From NCBI GenBank assembly GCA_902826775.1, contig CADEHE010000005.1, positions 310,001 to 374,000 on the forward strand: DNA of 64,000 nucleotides. Direction: 5' to 3'. The notes beneath the pieces were generated by a model. It was not told where the DNA came from. It worked only from the letters and a program-made list of their open reading frames with translations, and ran no database searches. This document shows, one piece after another, positions 12,267 to 24,218 of the stretch (positions are counted from its first letter, which is position 1; every line of letters starts with the position of its first letter). A program made the position numbers and the translations under genes. This stretch comes from an uncultured Pseudomonadota bacterium. GTDB lineage: Bacteria > Pseudomonadota > Gammaproteobacteria > Burkholderiales > JALYOK01.

Positions 12267-12307
12267 CAAGCCAGCTGCGCGGGTGTTTACCCGTGTGCCA
12301 GCCAGCC
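12267..12307 (+). repeat. CAAGCCAG-hairpin-GCCAGCCAGC unit, copy 2
   Basis: CAAGCCAG (12267-12274), a hairpin GCGCGGGT / ACCCGTGT around 12277-12296 with GTTT loop (G-U pairs allowed), and GCCAGCCAGCC (12297-12307). It fills the hemP-tonB spacer. Confidence 0.45.
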
Positions 12308-12315
12308 GCAGGCGT

Positions 12316-13074
12316 ATGGGTAACTTGCTCTCAATCTCACACACAACTGGCGGCGTGATCTTGCGTGGCACTCACGCGCCGCTGGCGGAGCGCGCTGCGT
12401 CTTTCGCGCTCGTCGTTATGCTGCACGCGGCGGTGCTTTTTGCGCTGTGGCAATACGCGCCGCTGCGCAGCGCCATGACACAGACGGCGACGCTGATGGT
12501 GAGCCTCATTCGCCCGGCGCCAATTGAGCCACCAGCGCCACCCGAAGTTATCGAAGCGCCCAAGCCGCTGCCCGTAGCGCCGAGGCCGAAGGCGAAGCCG
12601 AAGCCTGTCCCGCGGGTTGAGCCTAATCGCATCATCGCTACGCCGCAAAGCGCGCCGGCGCCCGTGCCGATGATGGTCGAGCCGCCGCCGCCAGAACCGC
12701 CCGCGCCGGCGCCGATGATGGTCGAGCCGGCGCCGCCGGAACCGCCCGCCCCGGCCTCGGCGATGGCTGCGCCACCCGCACCCGCGCCGATCGTGCCGCC
12801 CAGATTCAACGCAGACTATTTGGACAACCCGGCGCCGACCTACCCCGCGCAGTCGCGGCGTTTGAGCGAGGAAGGCCGCGTGGTGCTACGTGTGTTCGTC
12901 GCGGCGGACGGCAGCGCGCAAATAGTCGAAATTCGCCACAGCAGCGGCTATGCGCGGCTGGATCGCGCTGCGCGCGAAGCCGTTGCCGCTTGGCGTTTTG
13001 TCCCGGCGCGGAGCGGCGAAGAAAAAGTCGCGGCCTGGGTATTGGTGCCGATCAGCTTCACGTTAAACGAATAG
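12316..13074 (+). CDS. tonB: Energy transducer TonB
   Basis: 252 residues. An N-terminal membrane anchor (about 28-48, SFALVVMLHAAVLFALW) is followed by a Pro/Ala/Glu-rich spacer of about 110 residues including a 15-residue tandem repeat, and a C-terminal TonB domain with NPAPTYPAQSRRLSEEGRVV and the ending AAWRFVPARSGEE...VLVPISFTLNE. TonB spans the periplasm and transmits proton-motive force from ExbB/ExbD to outer-membrane receptors, here probably the two receptors downstream. The ATG at 12316 is used; an in-frame GTG at 12283 lies inside the repeat unit and is less likely. exbB begins 36 bases after the stop. Confidence 0.93.
   Translation: MGNLLSISHTTGGVILRGTHAPLAERAASFALVVMLHAAVLFALWQYAPLRSAMTQTATLMVSLIRPAPIEPPAPPEVIEAPKPLPVAPRPKAKPKPVPRVEPNRIIATPQSAPAPVPMMVEPPPPEPPAPAPMMVEPAPPEPPAPASAMAAPPAPAPIVPPRFNADYLDNPAPTYPAQSRRLSEEGRVVLRVFVAADGSAQIVEIRHSSGYARLDRAAREAVAAWRFVPARSGEEKVAAWVLVPISFTLNE
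12667..12756 (+). repeat. 45-bp tandem repeat inside tonB
   Basis: Two adjacent copies of a 45-base unit (12667-12711, 12712-12756) encode PMMVEPPPPEPPAPA-like and PMMVEPAPPEPPAPA-like segments of the periplasm-spanning linker. Such repeats vary linker length. Confidence 0.8.
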
Positions 13075-13110
13075 CCGCGGCTCAAGGCCGAATAACAAGG
13101 AGATTCACCG

Positions 13111-13878
13111 GTGGAAGCACAAACGTTGGGATTCGCGCATTTCTTCGGGCATGCAGACGCGATTGCGAAGTTCATTCTCGCTCTGCTCGCGCTCATGTCG
13201 GTGGCGACGTGGTACGTCATCGTCAGTAAGTTGCTGCGGAACTTCATGCTGCGCCGGCGCTCGCTCGCCTTCCTGCGAAATTTCTGGCAAGCGCACGACA
13301 TGCGACAGGTCACGGAGGCGCTGCGCAGCAGCGGCGCGAACGAGCCGTTCGGGCGGCTGGTAGCCGAGGGCTTGAGCGCGTGCGACCACCATCGCCGCCA
13401 AAGTGTGCATAAGCTTGTGGATGCCGGCACCGGCGAAGCGTTCTTGACGCGCGCACTGCGCCGCTCGCTCGATCGTGACGGCGCGCGGCTGGAATCCGGG
13501 TTGACGCTGCTCGCTTCAGTTGGATCGAGCGCGCCATTCGTCGGTTTGTTTGGCACCGTGTGGGGCGTCTATCACGCGCTTGTGGCGATCGGCATGCAAG
13601 GGCAGGGCACGCTCGATAAAGTCGCTGGGCCCGTTGGCGAAGCTCTTATCATGACCGGCATCGGCCTCGCCGTCGCCATACCTGCGGTACTCGCGTATAA
13701 CTTCTTTACGCGTGCTAACCGCAACCTGCTGACGGAGCTGGATAGCTTCGCCCACGATGTGTTTGCATTTCTATCCACCGGGCATCGCGGCGGCGGCGCT
13801 TCGATCAGCTACGTCACTCGCGCCGGGAATGAACCTGCCGCGAGCGAAGCGACACTGCGCACCCAGGGAGCCGCCTAA
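13111..13878 (+). CDS. exbB: ExbB (MotA/TolQ/ExbB proton channel)
   Basis: 255 residues starting at GTG 13111 behind AAGGAG. A first membrane segment (about 17-38) is followed by a cytoplasmic loop and two closely spaced membrane segments; SVGSSAPFVGLFGTVWGVYH and ALIMTGIGLAVAIPAVLAYN are the family signature (PF01618). ExbB forms the pentameric proton channel that, with ExbD, energises TonB. The stop overlaps the exbD start by one base (TAATG), indicating translational coupling. Confidence 0.95.
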   Translation: MEAQTLGFAHFFGHADAIAKFILALLALMSVATWYVIVSKLLRNFMLRRRSLAFLRNFWQAHDMRQVTEALRSSGANEPFGRLVAEGLSACDHHRRQSVHKLVDAGTGEAFLTRALRRSLDRDGARLESGLTLLASVGSSAPFVGLFGTVWGVYHALVAIGMQGQGTLDKVAGPVGEALIMTGIGLAVAIPAVLAYNFFTRANRNLLTELDSFAHDVFAFLSTGHRGGGASISYVTRAGNEPAASEATLRTQGAA

Positions 13879-14297
13879 TGGCGTTCGGCCGCTTCAACCA
13901 AGGTGCGCATCAGCCGATGGCGGAGATCAACATGATTCCGTTGATCGACGTCATGTTGGTATTGCTGATCATTTTCATCGTCACCGCGCCGCTGCTCACG
14001 CATGCGGTAAAAATAGATTTGCCGAAGGCTGCGTCAGAGCCGAATTTGAGCGAACGCGAGCACGTCGAGTTAGCCATTGGCACGGCGGGCACTTATTGGA
14101 ATGGCGAGTTGCTGGCGGACGAAGCGGCTTTGCAGGAGCGCCTGGCGGCCAGCGCAAAACTAGAGCCGCAACCGGAGCTGCATCTCAAGGTTGAGCGCAC
14201 TGCGCTGTACGAACGTGTCGCCAAAGTGATGTCGAGCGCCGCGAAGCTCGGGCTGACACGCATCGGCTTCGTCACTGACCCAAGCATGGAAAACTGA
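13878..14297 (+). CDS. exbD: ExbD (biopolymer transport)
   Basis: 139 residues, the usual size. AEINMIPLIDVMLVLLIIFI is the single membrane helix; D24 in PLIDVM is the essential proton-carrying aspartate. The periplasmic domain ends with VMSSAAKLGLTRIGFVTDP, typical of the ExbD/TolR family (PF02472). It works with ExbB and TonB. It is the last clearly intact gene of the hemP-tonB-exbB-exbD set; a spacer of 160-200 bases with two repeat units follows. Confidence 0.95.
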   Translation: MAFGRFNQGAHQPMAEINMIPLIDVMLVLLIIFIVTAPLLTHAVKIDLPKAASEPNLSEREHVELAIGTAGTYWNGELLADEAALQERLAASAKLEPQPELHLKVERTALYERVAKVMSSAAKLGLTRIGFVTDPSMEN

Positions 14298-14495: not shown

Positions 14496-14849
14496 GTGGA
14501 GCTCTCGAAGTTCGTCGAGCGCGACTGTGCTCTGGTGGGCGCCTGTACCGATCGCATCGGTGCGCACAAAGCGTGGTGCGGGGCGGGCCTGGGGAGAATG
14601 CGTTTCCCCATGGTTGGCGATGTCAGCCGGCAGTTAGCCAACGCCTTCGGCGTGCTCACCGAACTGGGAGTAGCACTGCGCGCCACCTTCATCATCGATC
14701 CGGAAGGTGTTGTTCAGAATGTCTCGGTGAACTCGCTCAACGTGGGGCGCTCTGCGAAAGAAACGCTGCGCACGCTGGACGCTTTGCGCAGCGGCGGCTT
14801 AACCGCCTGCGAATGGCAGCGCGGTGACGATCTACTGAAGGTGGCCTAA
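14496..14849 (+). pseudogene. AhpC-type peroxiredoxin fragment lacking the N-terminal third
   Basis: The frame encodes about 117 residues that follow an alkyl hydroperoxide reductase C sequence from just after the peroxidatic site: ELSKFVERDCALVGACTD, FPMVGDVSRQLANAFGVLTE, LRATFIIDPEGVVQNVSVN, NVGRSAKETLRTLDALRSGG, and TACEWQRGD containing the resolving Cys. The usual first 50-60 residues, with FTFVCPTE and the peroxidatic Cys, are missing. An in-frame TGA at 14457 stops the frame upstream; the ten codons between it and the GTG at 14496 read KITSSGCCRFQI-like, possibly a decayed remnant. A functional short protein starting at GTG 14496 is not excluded, but a classical peroxidase cycle is not possible. 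Confidence 0.75.
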
Positions 14850-15216: not shown

Positions 15217-15519
15217 ATGAACGCACATACTCACATTCCAACTGAGGACTTAAAGTCAGGACACGCAAGACGAATTAACGAATCGATAGCTGCTTCGCTG
15301 CGACCCGCGCGGCGACCGGCCTGGTTTACCCGCAAGCGCTCTTCGCGATGGATCCCAGTACTGCTCGGGGTGCTCGCTTCAGTAGTCGCTTTGTTGCTGG
15401 CCGTACTGCTGCCGAGTTTGCTCTTGCTAGAAATGTTTGGACCGGAGTGGTTCGCTGAGCCCGCCAGCAATGCTTACGCGGAGCAAAAAACCTTGGAAGA
15501 ACTGGGAGCCCATCAATGA
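15217..15519 (+). CDS. Small single-span membrane protein
   Basis: 100 residues; ATG at 15217 behind GAGAGGA. A basic N-terminal part (RPARRPAWFTRKRSSR) precedes one long hydrophobic helix (about residues 45-72, WIPVLLGVLASVVALLLAVL and on) and a short acidic tail. By the positive-inside rule the N-terminus is cytoplasmic and the tail periplasmic. No family recognised. Its stop overlaps the start of the OmpA-type lipoprotein gene (ATGATG), so the two are translationally coupled and may form an envelope complex; that is inference. Confidence 0.7.
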   Translation: MNAHTHIPTEDLKSGHARRINESIAASLRPARRPAWFTRKRSSRWIPVLLGVLASVVALLLAVLLPSLLLLEMFGPEWFAEPASNAYAEQKTLEELGAHQ

Positions 15520-16287
15520 TGCACACACGTCTTGCCGCAATAAGTTTCATGGTGTTTTGTCTGCTACCGGTGCAAGGTTGCGCCTGGACCAGCCGTATGT
15601 GGGGCAAACTAACGGGCGACGCGCCGGTCGCGAAAACGCAAGCCCAGCAGGGCGACGCCTCGCCGCTGAGCGGGGCGCAGGCGAGCCAGGTGCAGCCGAT
15701 GCCGGAACAGCCCGCCGCCCAGGTCGAGGCGCCCGCTGCCGAGCAACAAGCGAGCGTGCTGGCTCCCGTGTCTGAGGTGGCACCCGCCGCACCTTTGACT
15801 CCTGCAGATCAGCATGCCGTTACGCGGGCGCCAGCCACCGCCGAAGTAACGCCGGCGGAGCGCGCGCAAACCGCTGACTCCGCGCCAAACGCGTCACAGC
15901 CGATGGCCGAAACAACGCTATCCGGCGACGCGATGTTCGCGTTCGGCAAATCAGATATCGCAAACATCACCGCCGAAGGCCGCAGCCAGCTCGACGTGCT
16001 CGCCACGCAGCTGATCGCCATGGAAAGCAGACTCGACACGATCGCGGTTGTCGGCCACGCCGACCATCTTGGCGCACCCGCGCGGATCCAAGCGGTGTCT
16101 GAGCAGTGCCATGGCGGTAAAGCGCTACTTGGTGGCTCAAGGAGTTAATGCCCAATTGATCACTGCCGAGGGCCGCGGCGCGTTGGACCCGCGCGTTGAG
16201 TGTCCCGGTGCGAAGGCCTCGCCGGCGCTCGTTGAATGTCTTGCCCCCAATCGTCGCGTGGAAGTCGTGGCCCATGGGCGCCCGTAA
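15516..16287 (+). pseudogene. OmpA-domain lipoprotein, frameshifted
   Basis: The frame from 15516 encodes a lipoprotein signal (CLLPVQGC), a Pro/Ala/Gln-rich linker, and the first half of an OmpA C-terminal-type peptidoglycan-binding domain (TLSGDAMFAFGKSDIANITA, VVGHADHLGAPARI). At about 16105-16112 the reading frame shifts by +1: in frame one the text becomes SEQCHGGKALL and stops at 16148, while the next frame continues AMAVKRYLVAQGVNAQLITA to RRVEVVAHGRP and the stop at 16285-16287. One extra base, or loss of two, near CAGTGCC explains it. It may be a mutation, a sequencing error, or less likely programmed frameshifting. Intact, it would tether the outer membrane to peptidoglycan. Confidence 0.8.
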
Positions 16288-16464
16288 TCGACTACTCGCG
16301 CGCTGTCCAGATGATGCGGGCTGCACGTATTCGGCGGTGCCTGTATCGGTTGTTCAACGAGACCTTTTGACTAGAGCGAGGATAGTCGTAAGGCTTGCGA
16401 TGGGACTCTCTGCAGCTTGGCGGCGTGCTCGGATAAGACATGACAAAGAAGAGGAACACACAAA

Positions 16465-19107
16465 ATGCTACGCAATAGAGTACTGATCCTCGCAGTAGTC
16501 GCAATTGCTTCGGCATCCATACAAGCCGCCGAGCACGAGATCCGCCTGGACGAAGACCTCGGCGCGTTCCAACTCGAGTTTTTGCGCATCGCCCCCGGTG
16601 ACACAGTTAAATTTGAGCCACAGGACAAACCCAGCAGCGTCAACACGCGTTCGGTGCTCGTCCAGAACGGCGCTCATGGGTGGCGTCGTCCTCCGGGAAA
16701 GAGCAGCTTTGCGCATGAAGGGCTATACGTTTTCCAGAGCGACGCGCAACAGGCCGAAGGCATGCTGGAGGTAGCTCAGGTGGGACGTGCCGTCAACCTC
16801 GCGCAAACAGAAGCTAACTTTGCGCAAACCAAAATCTCTGCTTTGCTCGCGCGAAACGAGACAGTGAACATGTCGGCGCAGCAAATGGCGGACGCCGAAT
16901 CGAGCATGCCAGCCGAGGCTTCGCGCCCGCCGCAAACGGCGGCAACGCAAAGCAGTCAACCGCCGCCTGCGGTTAGCGTTGCACAGGCGACTTCTGACTC
17001 GGTAGGGCCGGCCGGCACAGAAAAAGAACCGAGTGCGAGTACCACGCCTCGACCGGATGCCGAACTCGCTGAGCTCACCGTGTACGGCTTTCGCAGGCAG
17101 TACAAAGTCTCGGAGACAAACACCGCGCTGGGTATGGATGCGGACATTCTGTCCACGCCGCTTTCCGTCACAGTTATACCGATGGATTTACTCGACGATC
17201 AACAGATCAACAACGTTGAAGACGCACTGCGCAATATTGCCGGTGTGACCAGATTCAAGGAGGGCAATGGCGGTGAGGAGAAATTTTCCATCCGCGGCTT
17301 CGACGCATCGAGAAATCTGTTCATAGACGGCGCGCGGCTCAACAATGAGTTCAACGCCACGAATATCGCGACGACGGAAACAGCGAATATCGATCGCTTC
17401 GAAGTGTTGAAAGGCCCATCGGCCATCTTGTTTGGTCAGGGCCTTCCGGGGGGCATCATCAACTACGTCACCAAGAAGCCGAGCTTCAAGCCCTACGCTG
17501 CAGCGGAACTGATCGTGGGGAATTTCGGTTTCAAGCGAGCAGAACTCGATTTGACCAGACCGATCAATGACTCGATCGCGTGGCGTGGTGTAGTTTCCTA
17601 CGAAGACTCGGACGGCTTTCGCGATTTCGATAGCCGCAAGCGTTACTTGATTTATCCTGCCGTCACTCTGAACTTTGGTAACCAGACGCGCTTGGACCTG
17701 TCTTACTCATACATTCGCGATCGTTACACACAAGACCGCGGTCAGGCGTTGGAACAAACGGCGGATGGCCGTTTCCGTTACGCGGATGCGCTGCGCCCCG
17801 ACATGTTCCTCGGTGTGCCAGGCTGGAACGATCGCACCAATTCAACTTATCAACGCCCGAGCCTGAACCTGACCCACGAGTTTGGCGAGAACTGGCGTCT
17901 GGAGCTGATCGCGGCGGCGACGAAGGTCGAGAAAGAGCTATTTGATTCTTCGCCCGACCCAGTGCGGCCGGACGGCACGGTGGAGATATTTCCCGGTTAC
18001 CAGGAAGGTACGGGAAAGACGCGGTATTTACGTCTCAACAACGAATGGAGCTTCGGGGACCCGAAGCGAATAGAACACCGGCTGTTGTTGTCCGTATACG
18101 AAGATTCAGCCAAGAACGATCTCGGGTCCGCCGAAGTGACCGGCAGCGGCAGCGTAGTGTTTGATCCGCGCACCCGAAGTTACAGTGAAACAGTGTTTAG
18201 CATCGATCCGAGCAGTTTCGATTTTTCGTTCAGCACGGATCAGCGCGAGCGCGCGGTATCGTTTCAAGATTTGATCACCTTCAAGGACAAGTACGTGCTC
18301 CTGCTGGGCGCGAGCCGCAACAGATTCGATGACCGAATCAGCGGTGATACGGTGTCGGCGACCAATCCACGCATCGGATTGATCTACAAAGCGACGCCCT
18401 CGAGCAGCTACTACGCCAGCTATTCGCGTGGATTTCTTCCTAGCACGGGCTTCGATCGTGATGGTAACGCACTGAAGCCTGAACGCCTCGCACAGGTCGA
18501 GCTCGGGGCGAAATACGAACTGCTTGACCGCAAGCTACAGGTGTCTGGCGCGCTATTCGACATTCGCGAACGCAATCAAGCGGTCACCGATCCGACATCG
18601 CTTGCCTTACCTCCGAATCAGCAGTGGTCGATCGCGCTAGGCGAGACGCGCACGCGCGGGCTTGAACTTCAATTGCTCGGAGAAGTCGGACGCCATTGGC
18701 GCGTTATTGCCGGCTATTCGTACCTGGACTCGAAGCTTGTGGATGATGGTCCGGATCTCAACAACGACGGCAATCGCCTCGGAGGCATTCCCAAACACAG
18801 TGGCAGCTTGTGGGCAATACACGAGTTCGACGGGCCGCTCAAAGGTTTGGGTTTAGGTGGTGGCGTCTTTGCGCAATCCCGAGTGCCGATCGGATTCGAA
18901 AATCGCTCGTACTACGATAGTTGGACGCAGATTGATCTCGCGGCATTCTACAAGTGGGACAAATGGAAGCTGCAGTTCAACGCCAAAAATGTGACGGACG
19001 AGGAGTATTTGCTGACACAAGCGCTGGCGTTCGAAGATCTGGCCTCGGTTCGCGTCGGAACCGCAACGCCAAGAACGTATACGTTCTCGCTTGCGCGGGA
19101 GTTCTGA
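16465..19107 (+). CDS. TonB-dependent receptor with N-terminal pseudoazurin-like (cupredoxin) domain, copy 1
   Basis: 880 residues; ATG at 16465 behind AAGAGGA. Layout: signal peptide (about 1-21), cupredoxin-like domain (about 23-125), Pro/Ser/Thr-rich linker, TonB box ELTVYG (203-208), plug (about 228-340, with SIRGFDASRNLFIDGARL and FEVLKGPSAILFGQGLPGG), and a 22-strand-type barrel ending in TFSLAREF with terminal Phe. The N-terminal domain shows LEFLRIAPGDTVKFEPQDK, EGLYVF and EGMLEVAQVGRAVNLAQ, which follow pseudoazurin. The copper ligands are changed: S57 for His, S92 for Cys, Q95 for His; only M100 remains. The receptor part resembles ferric-siderophore receptors; ligand unknown. Confidence 0.9.
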   Translation: MLRNRVLILAVVAIASASIQAAEHEIRLDEDLGAFQLEFLRIAPGDTVKFEPQDKPSSVNTRSVLVQNGAHGWRRPPGKSSFAHEGLYVFQSDAQQAEGMLEVAQVGRAVNLAQTEANFAQTKISALLARNETVNMSAQQMADAESSMPAEASRPPQTAATQSSQPPPAVSVAQATSDSVGPAGTEKEPSASTTPRPDAELAELTVYGFRRQYKVSETNTALGMDADILSTPLSVTVIPMDLLDDQQINNVEDALRNIAGVTRFKEGNGGEEKFSIRGFDASRNLFIDGARLNNEFNATNIATTETANIDRFEVLKGPSAILFGQGLPGGIINYVTKKPSFKPYAAAELIVGNFGFKRAELDLTRPINDSIAWRGVVSYEDSDGFRDFDSRKRYLIYPAVTLNFGNQTRLDLSYSYIRDRYTQDRGQALEQTADGRFRYADALRPDMFLGVPGWNDRTNSTYQRPSLNLTHEFGENWRLELIAAATKVEKELFDSSPDPVRPDGTVEIFPGYQEGTGKTRYLRLNNEWSFGDPKRIEHRLLLSVYEDSAKNDLGSAEVTGSGSVVFDPRTRSYSETVFSIDPSSFDFSFSTDQRERAVSFQDLITFKDKYVLLLGASRNRFDDRISGDTVSATNPRIGLIYKATPSSSYYASYSRGFLPSTGFDRDGNALKPERLAQVELGAKYELLDRKLQVSGALFDIRERNQAVTDPTSLALPPNQQWSIALGETRTRGLELQLLGEVGRHWRVIAGYSYLDSKLVDDGPDLNNDGNRLGGIPKHSGSLWAIHEFDGPLKGLGLGGGVFAQSRVPIGFENRSYYDSWTQIDLAAFYKWDKWKLQFNAKNVTDEEYLLTQALAFEDLASVRVGTATPRTYTFSLAREF

Positions 19108-19138
19108 ACCGTACCCGCGTGGCAGTGAAGGAGCTCTG

Positions 19139-19204
19139 ATGAGGCAAATTCTTAGCGCTCTCAGGCGCACGACTGTCTCGCTTCTCGTTACCTGGTACCC
19201 TTGA
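19139..19204 (+). CDS. Possible 21-residue leader peptide
   Basis: ATG at 19139 behind a good GAAGGAG (19127-19133, five-base spacing) opens a 21-codon frame, MRQILSALRRTTVSLLVTWYP, ending with TGA at 19202-19204, four bases before the PepSY start, which has no Shine-Dalgarno sequence of its own. It could allow translational coupling of the PepSY gene. Coding evidence is only the ribosome binding site and position. Confidence 0.35.
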   Translation: MRQILSALRRTTVSLLVTWYP

Positions 19205-19207
19205 AAA

Positions 19208-20494
19208 ATGCGGACTAGCATGCGTTGGTTTTGGGTGTTAGCGCACCGCTACGTCGGCTTAGTGATGGCAGGATTCCTGCTCATCGCTGGGTTGACCGGC
19301 GCGCTGCTTGCCTGGTATCACGAGTTGGATGCGGCGCTGAATCCGCATCTGTTTCGAGTACAGGCGCCGCACAGCGCCGCGGCGCCGCTCGATGCACTGA
19401 CCCTGCGAGAGAGTGTGCTGGCACGATACCCGGGCGCGGTGATTGACTACGTTAGTCTGCGCCGGACGCAGGGCGAAGCGGCGGTCTTCTACCTTGAAGG
19501 TGCACTCGATTCTGCAAGCGGCGAACCTCTTCAACTCGCCAACGATGAGGTATTCGTGGATCCTTATAGCGGGCGCGGACTGGGCGAGCGCAAGTGGGGT
19601 GACATCACACAAGGCTTGACCAATCTAATGCCGTTCATTTACCGGCTACACTACTCGCTCGCACTCGGTACCTTCGGCAGCTATCTGTTCGGCATCGTGG
19701 CCCTTGTCTGGACGTTGGATTGTTTCATTGGCGCGTACCTGACCTTTCCGGCCAGACGCCGTGGCCCGCGAACCGAGCACGCGGCCGCGGCGGCGGCCAG
19801 AGGTTGGTGGGCGCGCTGGGGCGTGTCTTGGAAAGTGCGTTGGCGCGCAGGGACTTACAAGTTGAACTTCGATCTGCATCGGGCCGGCGGCCTGTGGCCC
19901 TGGGCAATGTTATTTGTGCTCGCGTGGAGCAGCGTGGCCTTTAACCTGCAGGAGGTGTATCACCCAGTGATGCGCGCCTTGTTCGGCATGCAAATCGACG
20001 CTCGCACTGCCGTGCCTTCGGTGGGCGAGCCGCAAGCAAAGCTGGTGATGGGTTGGCAGCGCGCGCTTGAAGTCGGGCGCGAGCACGCGAGCGCGCTGGC
20101 GCGTGAAAAGGGCTTTAGCGTGCTGGCAGAGGATTCGTTGTCCTACGATCCAGCCAAGAACATGGTGCGCTTGCGCGTGAAAAGCGATCGCGATATCGGC
20201 GACAAGTACGGCGCCACGTCCGTGTATTTTCACAGCTCAACCGGGGTGTTGCTCGGCAGCTATGTTCCAACCGGTGAGGCGGTGGGTGACACAGTGACCA
20301 GTTGGCTGCTGACCCTGCACATGGCGCAAATCTGGGGCGTACCCTTCAAGCTGTTCGTTACAGTCGTCGGCGTTGTTCTCGCCGTGCTCTGCGCGACAGG
20401 CGTATATATCTGGTGGAGAAAACATCGATCACGTAGACAGATCGCCCGACGCAGCGTCGCCGCTGCGGCACAGGGAGTAGTAGCAAGCTTTTAA
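19208..20494 (+). CDS. PepSY-associated membrane protein (PiuB-like)
   Basis: 428 residues with four long membrane segments: one at the N-terminus (YVGLVMAGFLLIAGLTGALL), two in the middle (FGSYLFGIVALVWTLDCFIG and GGLWPWAMLFVLAWSSVAFN), one at the C-terminus (FKLFVTVVGVVLAVLCATGV). The HRYVGL and LHRAGGLW histidines fit the haem-ligand pattern of the PepSY-TM family (PF03929), whose members are encoded next to siderophore receptors and are proposed ferric-siderophore reductases. It sits between the two receptors here, which supports a role in releasing iron in the periplasm or at the inner membrane. ATG 19220 is an alternative start. Confidence 0.88.
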   Translation: MRTSMRWFWVLAHRYVGLVMAGFLLIAGLTGALLAWYHELDAALNPHLFRVQAPHSAAAPLDALTLRESVLARYPGAVIDYVSLRRTQGEAAVFYLEGALDSASGEPLQLANDEVFVDPYSGRGLGERKWGDITQGLTNLMPFIYRLHYSLALGTFGSYLFGIVALVWTLDCFIGAYLTFPARRRGPRTEHAAAAAARGWWARWGVSWKVRWRAGTYKLNFDLHRAGGLWPWAMLFVLAWSSVAFNLQEVYHPVMRALFGMQIDARTAVPSVGEPQAKLVMGWQRALEVGREHASALAREKGFSVLAEDSLSYDPAKNMVRLRVKSDRDIGDKYGATSVYFHSSTGVLLGSYVPTGEAVGDTVTSWLLTLHMAQIWGVPFKLFVTVVGVVLAVLCATGVYIWWRKHRSRRQIARRSVAAAAQGVVASF

Positions 20495-20673
20495 CTTCGA
20501 CGATCGGCCTGCCGTGTGAATTCGAGCGTCTAGGTAATCAGAAAGGAGTTTCGATTCGTATTCGTGTTCTTGTGCTGGCGTTCGTGCGGCACACCTTAGT
20601 TATCTAGCCAGTGACTTCCGAATGGAGAGCCAGCGATGATTTCTATCAACCTCAACGTCTTGGGAGTCAAAGT

Positions 20674-23535
20674 ATGCAGAATGAAAGTGTTTGTGATGAT
20701 CGGTGCGGCCGGCTTCGCATAAAGCAGAGAAGGTTGAACGGCTTAGCTGCCTCAAACAGCAAGCGACCCAATCAGTTAGCGCTGATCGCCGCGCTAACCT
20801 ATGCGTGGAGCGCCGCAGCCGCCGAGCATCATGTAGTCGTGAATGCCAAGCAGGCGCGGTTCGAACCCGCTTATCTCAGAATGGCGCCCGGAGATACCGT
20901 GGTTTTCCAGCCATCAGGGAGGCACGCCGCGGTGCGTTCTACGCTACTGCCCGCGGGCGCGTACCATTGGGCCGGCATCGCCGGGAAGCGCTATTCGGTT
21001 AAGCTGACGCGCGAAGGTTTGTACGTGTACGGCGGTGGTGCGCACGCTTCGAGTGGCATGGTCGGGGTTGTGCAGGTAGGTCGAGCAACCAATCTGGCGC
21101 AAGCGCAAGCGCTGAGATTGCCGCAACAGCGTGTGCGCGCGCAGCTTCAAGCGCTGCTGGAGCAAGTACCGGCAGACCAGCCTGAGCCGGGAAGGCTCGC
21201 AGCAGCCGCGCAGCAGCCTAGCCAGCCGCCGTCTCGGGCGGCAAGCATACCTGCAGCGCAACTTGCTCAGCCGTCCGCGCCGCAGACGCCGCAAGTCCCC
21301 AACGCGGTGAAAGCCAGCGAGCCGGTGCTGGAAAATCGTCCACCGCCCGCGACGGCAAGTCGCAGGCAGATGCAGGCCCAAGCGCCCGCCAACGAGCCCG
21401 CTTCGAGCGCGCCCACACTAGCCACGGTCAGAGTGGAGGCGCAAAGGTCACGCGCGAGTGACGGCAGCTACCAAGCGACCGCAACGCGCGTCGGAAAAGT
21501 TCTGCAAGATCCGCATGATGTCCCGCAAGCGCTCACCACCGTGACCAACAAGCTGATGGAAGAGCAACAAGTGGGCAGTCTGCGCGAGGCGCTGCGCAAT
21601 GTGCCGGGGCTGACTTTCAATGCGGCCGAAGGCGGGCGCGCCGGCGACAATATGATGCTGCGAAGCTTCTACACGTTTGGCGATACCTACCTCGACGGCA
21701 TCCGCGATACTGCGCAATATAACCGCGAGACGTTCAATCTCGAGCAAGTAGATGTGCTGCGGGGTTCGGCTGCCATGTTATTCGGGCGTGGTCAGGCCGG
21801 CGGTGTCATCAACCAAGTGAGCAAGGTGCCGGTGCTCGCCGACCAGCACAGATTGACCGGCAGCCTGGGCACCGATGGCTACCGCGAAGTCACTGCCGAT
21901 CTCAACAAGCAACTGGGCGAGACGAGCGCGCTGCGAATCAACGCGATGAAGCGCGACGAAGGTAGTTGGCGTAGCAATCCGGCTACGGGCGACGAGCCCG
22001 AATTGCATCGTGAAGGCATTGCCGCGAGTCTGGCCACCGGACTGAAATCCAGCGACCAGTTCGTCTTAAGCCATGTCTTGACCAAGACCCGCGACATACC
22101 GGACTACGGGTTTTCGTTCGACGCCGCAACGCGCAGTCCCAACAAGAATTTTCCGGCCAGCTACTTCTGGGGGATCGACAAGAACTTCGACGATAGCGAT
22201 ACCAACGTCACCACAGGCGTATGGACGCATCGCTTTTCGCCGACTAGTGAACTGCGCACCTCGCTACGCTATGCAGACTACGAGCGCAGCTACTGGGCAC
22301 GCACGCCAAGTGCAACGGCGGCGCCCAACGTCGACGGCACCATCGTCAATACCAACGCCACCACCGGTGCGCAAACCTACAACGCCGGGCCAACGCGCGC
22401 CATGGACTACGAAACGCTCACGCTGCAGTCGGACTTTAACCGGCAATTCAAGGCACTCGGCACCACGCATGAACTGCTGGCAGGGTTCGAGTTTCTGCGC
22501 GAAGACAGTCATCGCAACGGCTTGCTCAACCTAAGCGGCGGCAATGACGCCACCACCAATCCTCCTCCCTTCTTCCGCCCTTATGTTGAAAATACAACGG
22601 CCATTCCGGTCAACTTCAAGAGCGATTCGTACGCTCTCTACGTGCAGGACTCATTCGAGATCTTGCCGAGCTGGAAGGCGACGGCGGGCGCGCGGCGCGA
22701 CGAGTTGGACGCAAATTATTCGAGCACCACGTCGCCACAGTTGCGCTACGGTGAGTGGAGCTATCGGGCAGCACTTTCTTGGCAACCCCAAGACAGCTCG
22801 CACTACTACCTTAGCTGGAGTGACTCATTCAGTCCCACGGCCGACTTGTACCAACTGACCGTCGAACCGCTGCCGCCCGAACGCAGTCAAGTGGTCGAGT
22901 TGGGGGCAAAGTGGTTGTTTTTCGACGGCGATCTCGCATTTCGCACTGCCATCTATCAAGCAGAGAAGGAGTGGGAACGCAACACCGATCTGGAGTCGAC
23001 CGCGGCGGTGCTCACGAAGAAGCGTCGCACTAACGGCGTGGAGTTTGATCTGGCCGGGCGGGTCACGCCGAATTGGGAGATATTTGGCGGCGTCGCGCTG
23101 ATGGATGCCGAGATCTTAGAGGTTGCAGAAAACGTCAATCCCACGACCGGCGCAATTACCGCCAGCAATCCAGACTACAAAGGCAAGCGCGCGCGTAATA
23201 CGCCGCCCTATACGGTCAACTTGTGGACCACTTACAAGCTGGGCGGCGGCTGGAAAATTGGCGGGGGCGTCGAGGCGAAAGGTAAACGCTACGGGTACAA
23301 CCCGAGCGGGGCGGGTCCGGTGCCGACCTTGAACGGTGACTTTCACCCGAACACCGCACCCGCTTATGAGCGCTACGATCTTCTGCTTTCCTATGAGCAG
23401 AAGGATTGGGGCGTTCGCCTCAACCTTCGCAATGTGCTCGACGAGATCTGGTACGACGCGCTTTATGACAATGGTGCGTTCACTGTGCCCGGGACACGGC
23501 GGATGGCGATTTTAACCGGCGAGTTGAAATTCTAA
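20674..23535 (+). CDS. TonB-dependent siderophore receptor (Fiu/PiuA-like) with N-terminal pseudoazurin-like domain, copy 2
   Basis: 953 residues from ATG 20674, which has GGGAG seven bases upstream; GTG 20611 is a less likely start. A long basic N-terminus precedes the signal (LALIAALTYAWSAAAA). Residues about 50-163 closely follow pseudoazurin: ARFEPAYLRMAPGDTVVFQP, REGLYVYGGGAHASSGMVGV and VVQVGRATNLAQAQALRLPQ, including the C-terminal helices. The Cys ligand is G121, but H124 and M129 remain, and H84 is one residue off the first His. After a Pro/Ala/Gln linker come the TonB box (ATVRVEA, 250-256), plug (about 280-386, DVPQALTTVT, YLDGIRDTAQYNRETFNLEQ) and barrel. Catecholate siderophore uptake is likely. 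PiuC overlaps the stop. Confidence 0.92.
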   Translation: MQNESVCDDRCGRLRIKQRRLNGLAASNSKRPNQLALIAALTYAWSAAAAEHHVVVNAKQARFEPAYLRMAPGDTVVFQPSGRHAAVRSTLLPAGAYHWAGIAGKRYSVKLTREGLYVYGGGAHASSGMVGVVQVGRATNLAQAQALRLPQQRVRAQLQALLEQVPADQPEPGRLAAAAQQPSQPPSRAASIPAAQLAQPSAPQTPQVPNAVKASEPVLENRPPPATASRRQMQAQAPANEPASSAPTLATVRVEAQRSRASDGSYQATATRVGKVLQDPHDVPQALTTVTNKLMEEQQVGSLREALRNVPGLTFNAAEGGRAGDNMMLRSFYTFGDTYLDGIRDTAQYNRETFNLEQVDVLRGSAAMLFGRGQAGGVINQVSKVPVLADQHRLTGSLGTDGYREVTADLNKQLGETSALRINAMKRDEGSWRSNPATGDEPELHREGIAASLATGLKSSDQFVLSHVLTKTRDIPDYGFSFDAATRSPNKNFPASYFWGIDKNFDDSDTNVTTGVWTHRFSPTSELRTSLRYADYERSYWARTPSATAAPNVDGTIVNTNATTGAQTYNAGPTRAMDYETLTLQSDFNRQFKALGTTHELLAGFEFLREDSHRNGLLNLSGGNDATTNPPPFFRPYVENTTAIPVNFKSDSYALYVQDSFEILPSWKATAGARRDELDANYSSTTSPQLRYGEWSYRAALSWQPQDSSHYYLSWSDSFSPTADLYQLTVEPLPPERSQVVELGAKWLFFDGDLAFRTAIYQAEKEWERNTDLESTAAVLTKKRRTNGVEFDLAGRVTPNWEIFGGVALMDAEILEVAENVNPTTGAITASNPDYKGKRARNTPPYTVNLWTTYKLGGGWKIGGGVEAKGKRYGYNPSGAGPVPTLNGDFHPNTAPAYERYDLLLSYEQKDWGVRLNLRNVLDEIWYDALYDNGAFTVPGTRRMAILTGELKF

Positions 23536-24218
23536 TGTTGATGACGCTCGACAATGTGCTCACGCGTGAGGAGCTTGCCGAGGCGCGCGAGATGATCGCG
23601 CATTCTCAGTGGGCAAGCGGTTTGGCGACGGCCGGTACGCAGGCGGCTGCAGTAAAGGACAACCAGCAGTTGCCGGAGGATGCGCCCTTCTTGCCCGCGT
23701 TGCGGCGCATGGTGCTGGCTGCGCTGAATCGGCAGCCGCTGTTCTTTAGCGCCGCGCTTCCGCTAAAGATTCTGGCGCCGTTCTTCAACCGCTACGGCGA
23801 AACCGGCAATCGTTATGGCCAGCATACCGACGGTGCCATGCGGCTCACGCCTGACGGAGCCGGCTATGTGCGAGCGGACGTTTCCGCCACGTTATTTCTT
23901 TCTGAGCCAGAGGAATACGACGGCGGTATTCTTGCTGTTCAAGACACGTTTGCGACCCATAACATCAAACTGAAGGCCGGGAGCATTGTCGTGTATCCAT
24001 CTTCGTCCATTCACGAAGTAACGCCGGTTACCCGCGGCGCGCGCATCGGGTGCTTTATGTTCATGCAGAGCATGGTGCGGGACGCCGAAAAACGCCGCGT
24101 CCTATTCGACTTGGATTTGGCCATCCAGCAGTTGCGCCAGCAAGTCGGTGAAGCGGCGCCCGTGGTCAGTTTGACTGGCACTTATCATAACTTGTTGCGG
24201 CGCTGGGCAGATACCTGA
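23535..24218 (+). CDS. piuC: Fe(II)/2-oxoglutarate dioxygenase, PiuC/YbiX family (PKHD-type hydroxylase)
   Basis: 227 residues, matching the family (about 225). The iron triad is visible: H97 and D99 in YGQHTDG, H160 in SSSIHEV, with R170 placed to bind 2-oxoglutarate. The N-terminus LDNVLTREELAEAREMI and the SATLFLSEPEEYDGGIL stretch are family-typical. The start codon overlaps the receptor stop (TAATG), so synthesis is coupled to receptor 2. Homologues are iron-regulated partners of Fiu/PiuA receptors; the hydroxylated substrate is not established. Confidence 0.94.
   Translation: MLMTLDNVLTREELAEAREMIAHSQWASGLATAGTQAAAVKDNQQLPEDAPFLPALRRMVLAALNRQPLFFSAALPLKILAPFFNRYGETGNRYGQHTDGAMRLTPDGAGYVRADVSATLFLSEPEEYDGGILAVQDTFATHNIKLKAGSIVVYPSSSIHEVTPVTRGARIGCFMFMQSMVRDAEKRRVLFDLDLAIQQLRQQVGEAAPVVSLTGTYHNLLRRWADT

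Follow-up and report, generated by a model that had tools for sequence, protein, structure and literature searches.

Copper-less pseudoazurin-type domains ahead of the TonB box in two neighbouring TonB-dependent receptors

The window, that is, the whole stretch of 64,000 nucleotides analysed here, contains two neighbouring genes for TonB-dependent receptors, which, like all other genes described below for this locus, lie on the plus strand. Receptor 1 (R1; 16465-19107) comprises 880 aa, and receptor 2 (R2; ORF 20611-23535) comprises 953 aa when counted from ATG 20674, the likely start judging from a GGGAG-like site and the normal signal peptide that follows from this choice. A tonB-exbB-exbD operon (12283..14297), assigned by Pfam matches and found in the same order in one relative, precedes the receptors. 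The gap of about 6.4 kb between exbD and R2 holds a peroxiredoxin-like fragment, small ORFs, an OmpA-like gene, R1 and a gene for a PepSY_TM inner-membrane protein. The sequence-only reading of this locus had placed PepSY and PiuC genes next to the receptors, and profile searches confirmed both. The former (19208..20494; PF03929, 2e-57) encodes a candidate ferric-siderophore reductase of the FoxB/HiuB kind, by analogy with Caulobacter hiuB, which follows hiuA and is required for ferrioxamine use (PMC12424826). The latter (23535..24218; NF003975, 1.4e-96; PKHD_C) encodes an Fe(II) dioxygenase of the PiuC/YbiX/CciO type and is the partner gene of R2, just as cciO pairs with cciT (PMC12004947). 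Two further genes of the locus appear damaged. The OmpA-like gene (15516-16290) has an apparent frameshift near 16100 and its ORF, which stops at 16148, holds half of the domain (PF00691, 1-55 of 98), the rest being seemingly readable in another frame; the AhpC/TSA peroxiredoxin fragment between exbD and R1 (14496-14849) is missing its N-terminal half (PF00578, 52-123 of 124) and is probably a truncated gene. A search for Fur boxes near the receptors yielded nothing above background, promoter and terminator scans gave counts no higher than in shuffled sequences, and PADLOC returned no match.

Both receptors carry a plug (PF07715; E-values of 2.4e-25 for R1 and 2.5e-18 for R2) and a 22-strand barrel (PF00593; 1.1e-47 and 1.6e-42, respectively). 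In R1, a signal peptide (16465..16530) with predicted cleavage near SIQA/AEH and a putative TonB box, LTVYG (17074..17088), were recognized by inspection, the latter just upstream of the plug and barrel (17149..18993). The R1 body scores above the cut-off of the siderophore-receptor model TIGR01783, and its closest solved structure is the enantio-pyochelin receptor 3qlb (8e-51); it has no near relative among 100 genomes of the order, the best reaching 33% identity. We also considered R1 as a CrtA-type copper receptor on account of its PepSY neighbour; this assignment appears less likely, as 3qlb is a far better match than 9rvq (1.4e-18), which is presumably CrtA. The CrtA cluster has a conserved His358 site. 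As with R1, a PepSY_TM gene comes after crtA (PMC12914433). The predicted signal peptide of R2 (20674..20823) has a long basic n-region, and a putative TonB box, ATVRVEA (21421..21441), again identified by inspection, stands upstream of the plug and barrel (21514..23436). The body of R2, which falls below the TIGR01783 cut-off, matches the solved siderophore receptors 5nec, 5fok and 5fp1 as well as Fiu. Its top NCBIfam match is the Fiu model, yet the score stays below the strict Fiu equivalog cut-off. We assign R2 to the Fiu/PiuA/CciT type, since Fiu/PiuA are its closest counterparts and a gene for a PiuC/YbiX dioxygenase accompanies it. The predicted mature N-termini, at about 16528 (R1) and 20821 (R2), read Ala-Glu-His, an ATCUN-like start that is also found in ordinary pseudoazurins, for example in L078.

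Between the signal peptide and the TonB box, both receptors hold an N-terminal domain of about 105-115 residues (16531..16851 in R1; 20824..21168 in R2), for which a pseudoazurin-like cupredoxin fold had been proposed from the sequence. Profile searches and structure prediction bear this out for both segments. The R2 domain matches the pseudoazurin model TIGR02375 with an E-value of 5.5e-19 over positions 11-116 of 116, and the R1 domain with 1.1e-9 over positions 8-97; both remain below the equivalog cut-off of 109.85 bits, as expected of divergent members. The R2 segment alone also scores 24.9 bits against PF00127 (gathering threshold 21.2; 22.4 in the genome scan) and matches pseudoazurins of the PDB down to 1.2e-11; neither PF00127 nor any other Pfam family matches the N-terminal segment of R1. 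An alignment of the two domains, when used for searching, matches the R1 domain too. AlphaFold2 models built with 29 relatives in the alignment are pseudoazurin-like in both cases, with a pLDDT of 91 for R2 and, at modest confidence, 74 for R1, and the two C-terminal helices that had been anticipated are visible in both. With Foldseek, the best PDB match is a pseudoazurin for either model (4.3e-12 and a TM score of 0.83 to 1adw for R2; 3e-9 for R1), and VIA aligns the R1 model to 3tu6 with a Z score of 13.7 over 115 residues, compared with about 9 for plastocyanins. Pseudoazurins make up most of the alignment on which the R1 model depends; the TIGR02375 match of R1 is independent of that alignment. 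The domains occupy the place where an STN domain would be, as had been noted, and are not STN domains themselves: PF07660 gives no match in either receptor up to an E-value of 1, and SusC-type and AMIN domains are likewise absent. A linker recognized by its composition leads from each domain to the TonB box, 69 residues rich in Pro, Gln, Ala and Ser in R1 (16855..17061) and 82 residues rich in Pro, Gln and Ala in R2 (21169..21414), in agreement with the Pro/Gln-rich linker described earlier.

The pseudoazurin fold is retained and the redox centre is lost in both domains. Most of the near-invariant fold positions of the family are kept in both (F15, G25, D26, T27, F30 and S41, and further G47, G67, Y69, Q86, G88 and N92). 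Every one of the 28 aligned standalone pseudoazurins has His-Cys-His-Met in the four ligand columns; R2 has Ala-Gly-His-Met there and R1 has Ser-Ser-Gln-Met, so that two of four ligands are kept in the former and one of four in the latter. The Cys and the first His are thus gone from both domains and the second His from R1 as well, and neither has the His-Cys-His-Met set required for type 1 copper; R2 has a His one position ahead of the lost first ligand. Because of this ligand loss, it is very unlikely that either domain binds copper in a type 1 site or transfers electrons, and the earlier suggestion of a metal-binding or redox role is not supported as far as blue copper is concerned.

Identity between the two domains is 40-41%, compared with only 24% for the plug-barrel parts, which points to one module common to two different types of siderophore receptor. 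Between the two domain copies, pN is 0.40 and pS is 0.75, with synonymous sites saturated, as would be expected of a protein still under constraint. The net charges of the domains are opposite, +7 in R2 and -5 in R1, an argument against a single electrostatic surface conserved for partner binding. The shared function that had been suggested for the duplicated domain is plausible in itself, but hardly through a single such surface.

To determine how widespread this layout is, we searched with the two-domain alignment genomes drawn from the order (399), the class (369), the phylum (398) and two families (117 and 125), five overlapping sets that amount to about 1,270 distinct genomes of the phylum, the family of the source organism being otherwise unsampled. 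No other receptor fusion was found among them. Matching frames elsewhere were at most 506 aa long, and the roughly 50 inspected all lacked a receptor part and proved to be standalone or tandem pseudoazurins. A search of genome contigs returned 21 loci, all standalone pseudoazurins, and the plasmid matches listed, beyond which there are 270 further records, look like pseudoazurins. The cyanobacterial plasmid matches to R1 that continued ahead of the plug belong to receptors with an AMIN domain rather than to cupredoxin fusions; those on Nostoc and Trichormus plasmids (L114 and L115) are AMIN-bearing siderophore receptors beside NRPS genes. Within the source genome, the domain is absent from the other 17 plug-domain proteins. 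The statement that no receptor with a cupredoxin in this place had been described stands as far as the literature searched is concerned, where no text joins a TonB-dependent receptor and a cupredoxin domain. Among the standalone and tandem forms, one genome of the same class (G691; L104:1-5276 and L105) yields six pseudoazurin matches; a 500-aa frame holds two of the domains and a 506-aa frame a further one, as in tandem pseudoazurin proteins. Another pseudoazurin (L116 of G1173, minus strand, about 1314-1716 in reverse-complement coordinates) has an internal deletion that removes the region of the first His ligand and keeps the Cys-His-Met loop.

The nearest relatives of R2 bear directly on the origin of the fusion. 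Two genomes, G062 and G042, encode receptors 65% identical to its body, in which only a short segment separates the signal peptide from the plug and the cupredoxin domain is absent. The gene order tonB-exbB-exbD-receptor-piuC of G042 is the same as here, and G062 keeps receptor-piuC. Domain-less relatives at this identity, one of them in the same gene order, suggest that the domain was gained on an older receptor. The simplest history, reconstructed from these comparisons, would be that an older Fiu-type receptor acquired the domain in this lineage, and that this gain was connected with R1 and the PepSY gene becoming its neighbours. Most likely this gain was recent; since the source family is otherwise unsampled, the fusion may also be present in unsampled relatives. 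R2 and its domain-less relatives in the same gene setting constitute a clean before-and-after pair for judging the contribution of such a domain.

A receptor's communication with TonB or with regulators is governed by the N-terminal domain that precedes its TonB box. Small domains in this place have precedents, namely STN, AMIN and the SusC N-terminal extension. The last of these is a seven-stranded Ig-like domain proposed to give TonB specificity, and its deletion abolished growth on levan (PMC7782687); for the STN domain of FoxA, a flexible linker and TonB contacts have been described (PMC6699858). The explanation that we tentatively consider best as a whole is that siderophore receptors of this lineage received an entire pseudoazurin at their N-terminus, and that this domain lost its copper site and was retained as a folded protein-docking domain in the periplasm, tethered by a flexible linker that leads to the TonB box. 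Hanging under the barrel, it would bind a partner, for which the TonB of the operon upstream, the PepSY_TM reductase and other envelope proteins are candidates; in the loaded receptor it would thereby increase either the local concentration of that partner or the specificity for it. The genome encodes five TonB_C proteins, which leaves room for partner choice. Several points count against docking: the two copies differ in the sign of their charge, the domain-less relative has the same tonB-exbBD neighbours, so the domain is not needed for that TonB, the fusion is known from one genome only, and the R1 model is of modest confidence. A more specific version, in which a former electron carrier became a docking module, moved between two receptors of one locus that are only distantly related, and now links siderophore import across the outer membrane to the inner-membrane TonB or PepSY ferric reductase through its old partner-binding face, without copper, is rather doubtful.

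Other explanations appear less probable. A chance fusion tolerated as a spacer with no job would fit the restriction to a single genome, the decayed ligands and the unlike charges of the copies, but we regard such a passive remnant as unlikely, given that fold, linker and reading frame are kept on two different receptors with pN below pS, and that an unneeded insert of about 100 residues would be expected to decay or vanish from both. Less likely still is a domain whose altered ligand set binds copper or iron and supplies the imported complex, or the PepSY protein, with electrons or metal. Candidate ligands do exist, namely His36, His76, Met81 and the N-terminal Ala-Glu-His-His in R2, and Met80 and Ala-Glu-His in R1: R2 keeps the equivalents of His81 and Met86 and has a His adjoining the lost His40, and the predicted mature N-termini conform to the ATCUN-like X-X-His motif. 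Furthermore, the CciT/CciO pair of Caulobacter, to which R2 and PiuC correspond in type, has a link to copper resistance through iron uptake (PMC12004943), and PepSY_TM proteins such as HiuB and FoxB act on ferric siderophores (PMC12424826). However, the Cys that defines a type 1 site is missing from both domains, R1 is left with a single ligand of the four, and the occurrence of the Ala-Glu-His start in ordinary pseudoazurins indicates that it was inherited rather than newly acquired.

Equally improbable, in our estimate, is a cell-surface signalling domain that stands in for STN and reports ligand binding to an inner-membrane regulator. The location is that of STN and the linker ahead of the TonB box is flexible, and ligand sensing by the domain is possible; nevertheless, there is no STN match even at an E-value of 1, no sigma factor, anti-sigma factor or FecR gene was found among the receptor-adjacent genes examined, and the receptor contig has no FecR gene, the four FecR-domain frames of the genome residing on other contigs. 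We give very little credence to the idea that a stable cupredoxin fold aids export, periplasmic stability or Bam-dependent assembly. Deletion of the Ig-like SusC extension caused a severe defect that, according to the authors, may concern biogenesis (PMC7782687), but receptors 65% identical to R2 do without the domain.

Accessory domains before the TonB box are already known, among them STN, the SusC extension and AMIN; a cupredoxin in that place, moreover a copper-less one, has no counterpart in the literature searched. The STN domains of FecA, FpvA and FoxA share with the domains described here their position, flexible linker and periplasmic location, but belong to another fold and family, and no FecR or sigma partner gene lies near our receptors. 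The SusC extension (PF13715) is a small beta-sandwich in the same place, but of a different family and belonging to Bacteroidota SusCD systems, whereas the AMIN domain of cyanobacterial siderophore receptors, likewise an accessory domain of about 100 residues before the plug, represents yet another family. With regard to the receptors themselves, the R2 body and its piuC neighbour correspond to Fiu/PiuA/CciT and YbiX/PiuC/CciO, although the orthologs examined are devoid of a cupredoxin domain; R1 followed by its PepSY_TM gene resembles the receptor-PepSY pairs of hiuABC and FoxA-FoxB, for which no cupredoxin domain has been reported. The closest counterpart of the domains is pseudoazurin itself (TIGR02375; 1adw, 3tu6, 1paz), with which they have in common the entire fold with its order of strands and both C-terminal helices, as well as many core residues and secretion with a cleaved signal; unlike pseudoazurin, they are fused to an outer-membrane receptor and have lost Cys and the first His, and in R1 also the second His, providing an example of a blue copper protein retained as a fold after loss of its metal centre.
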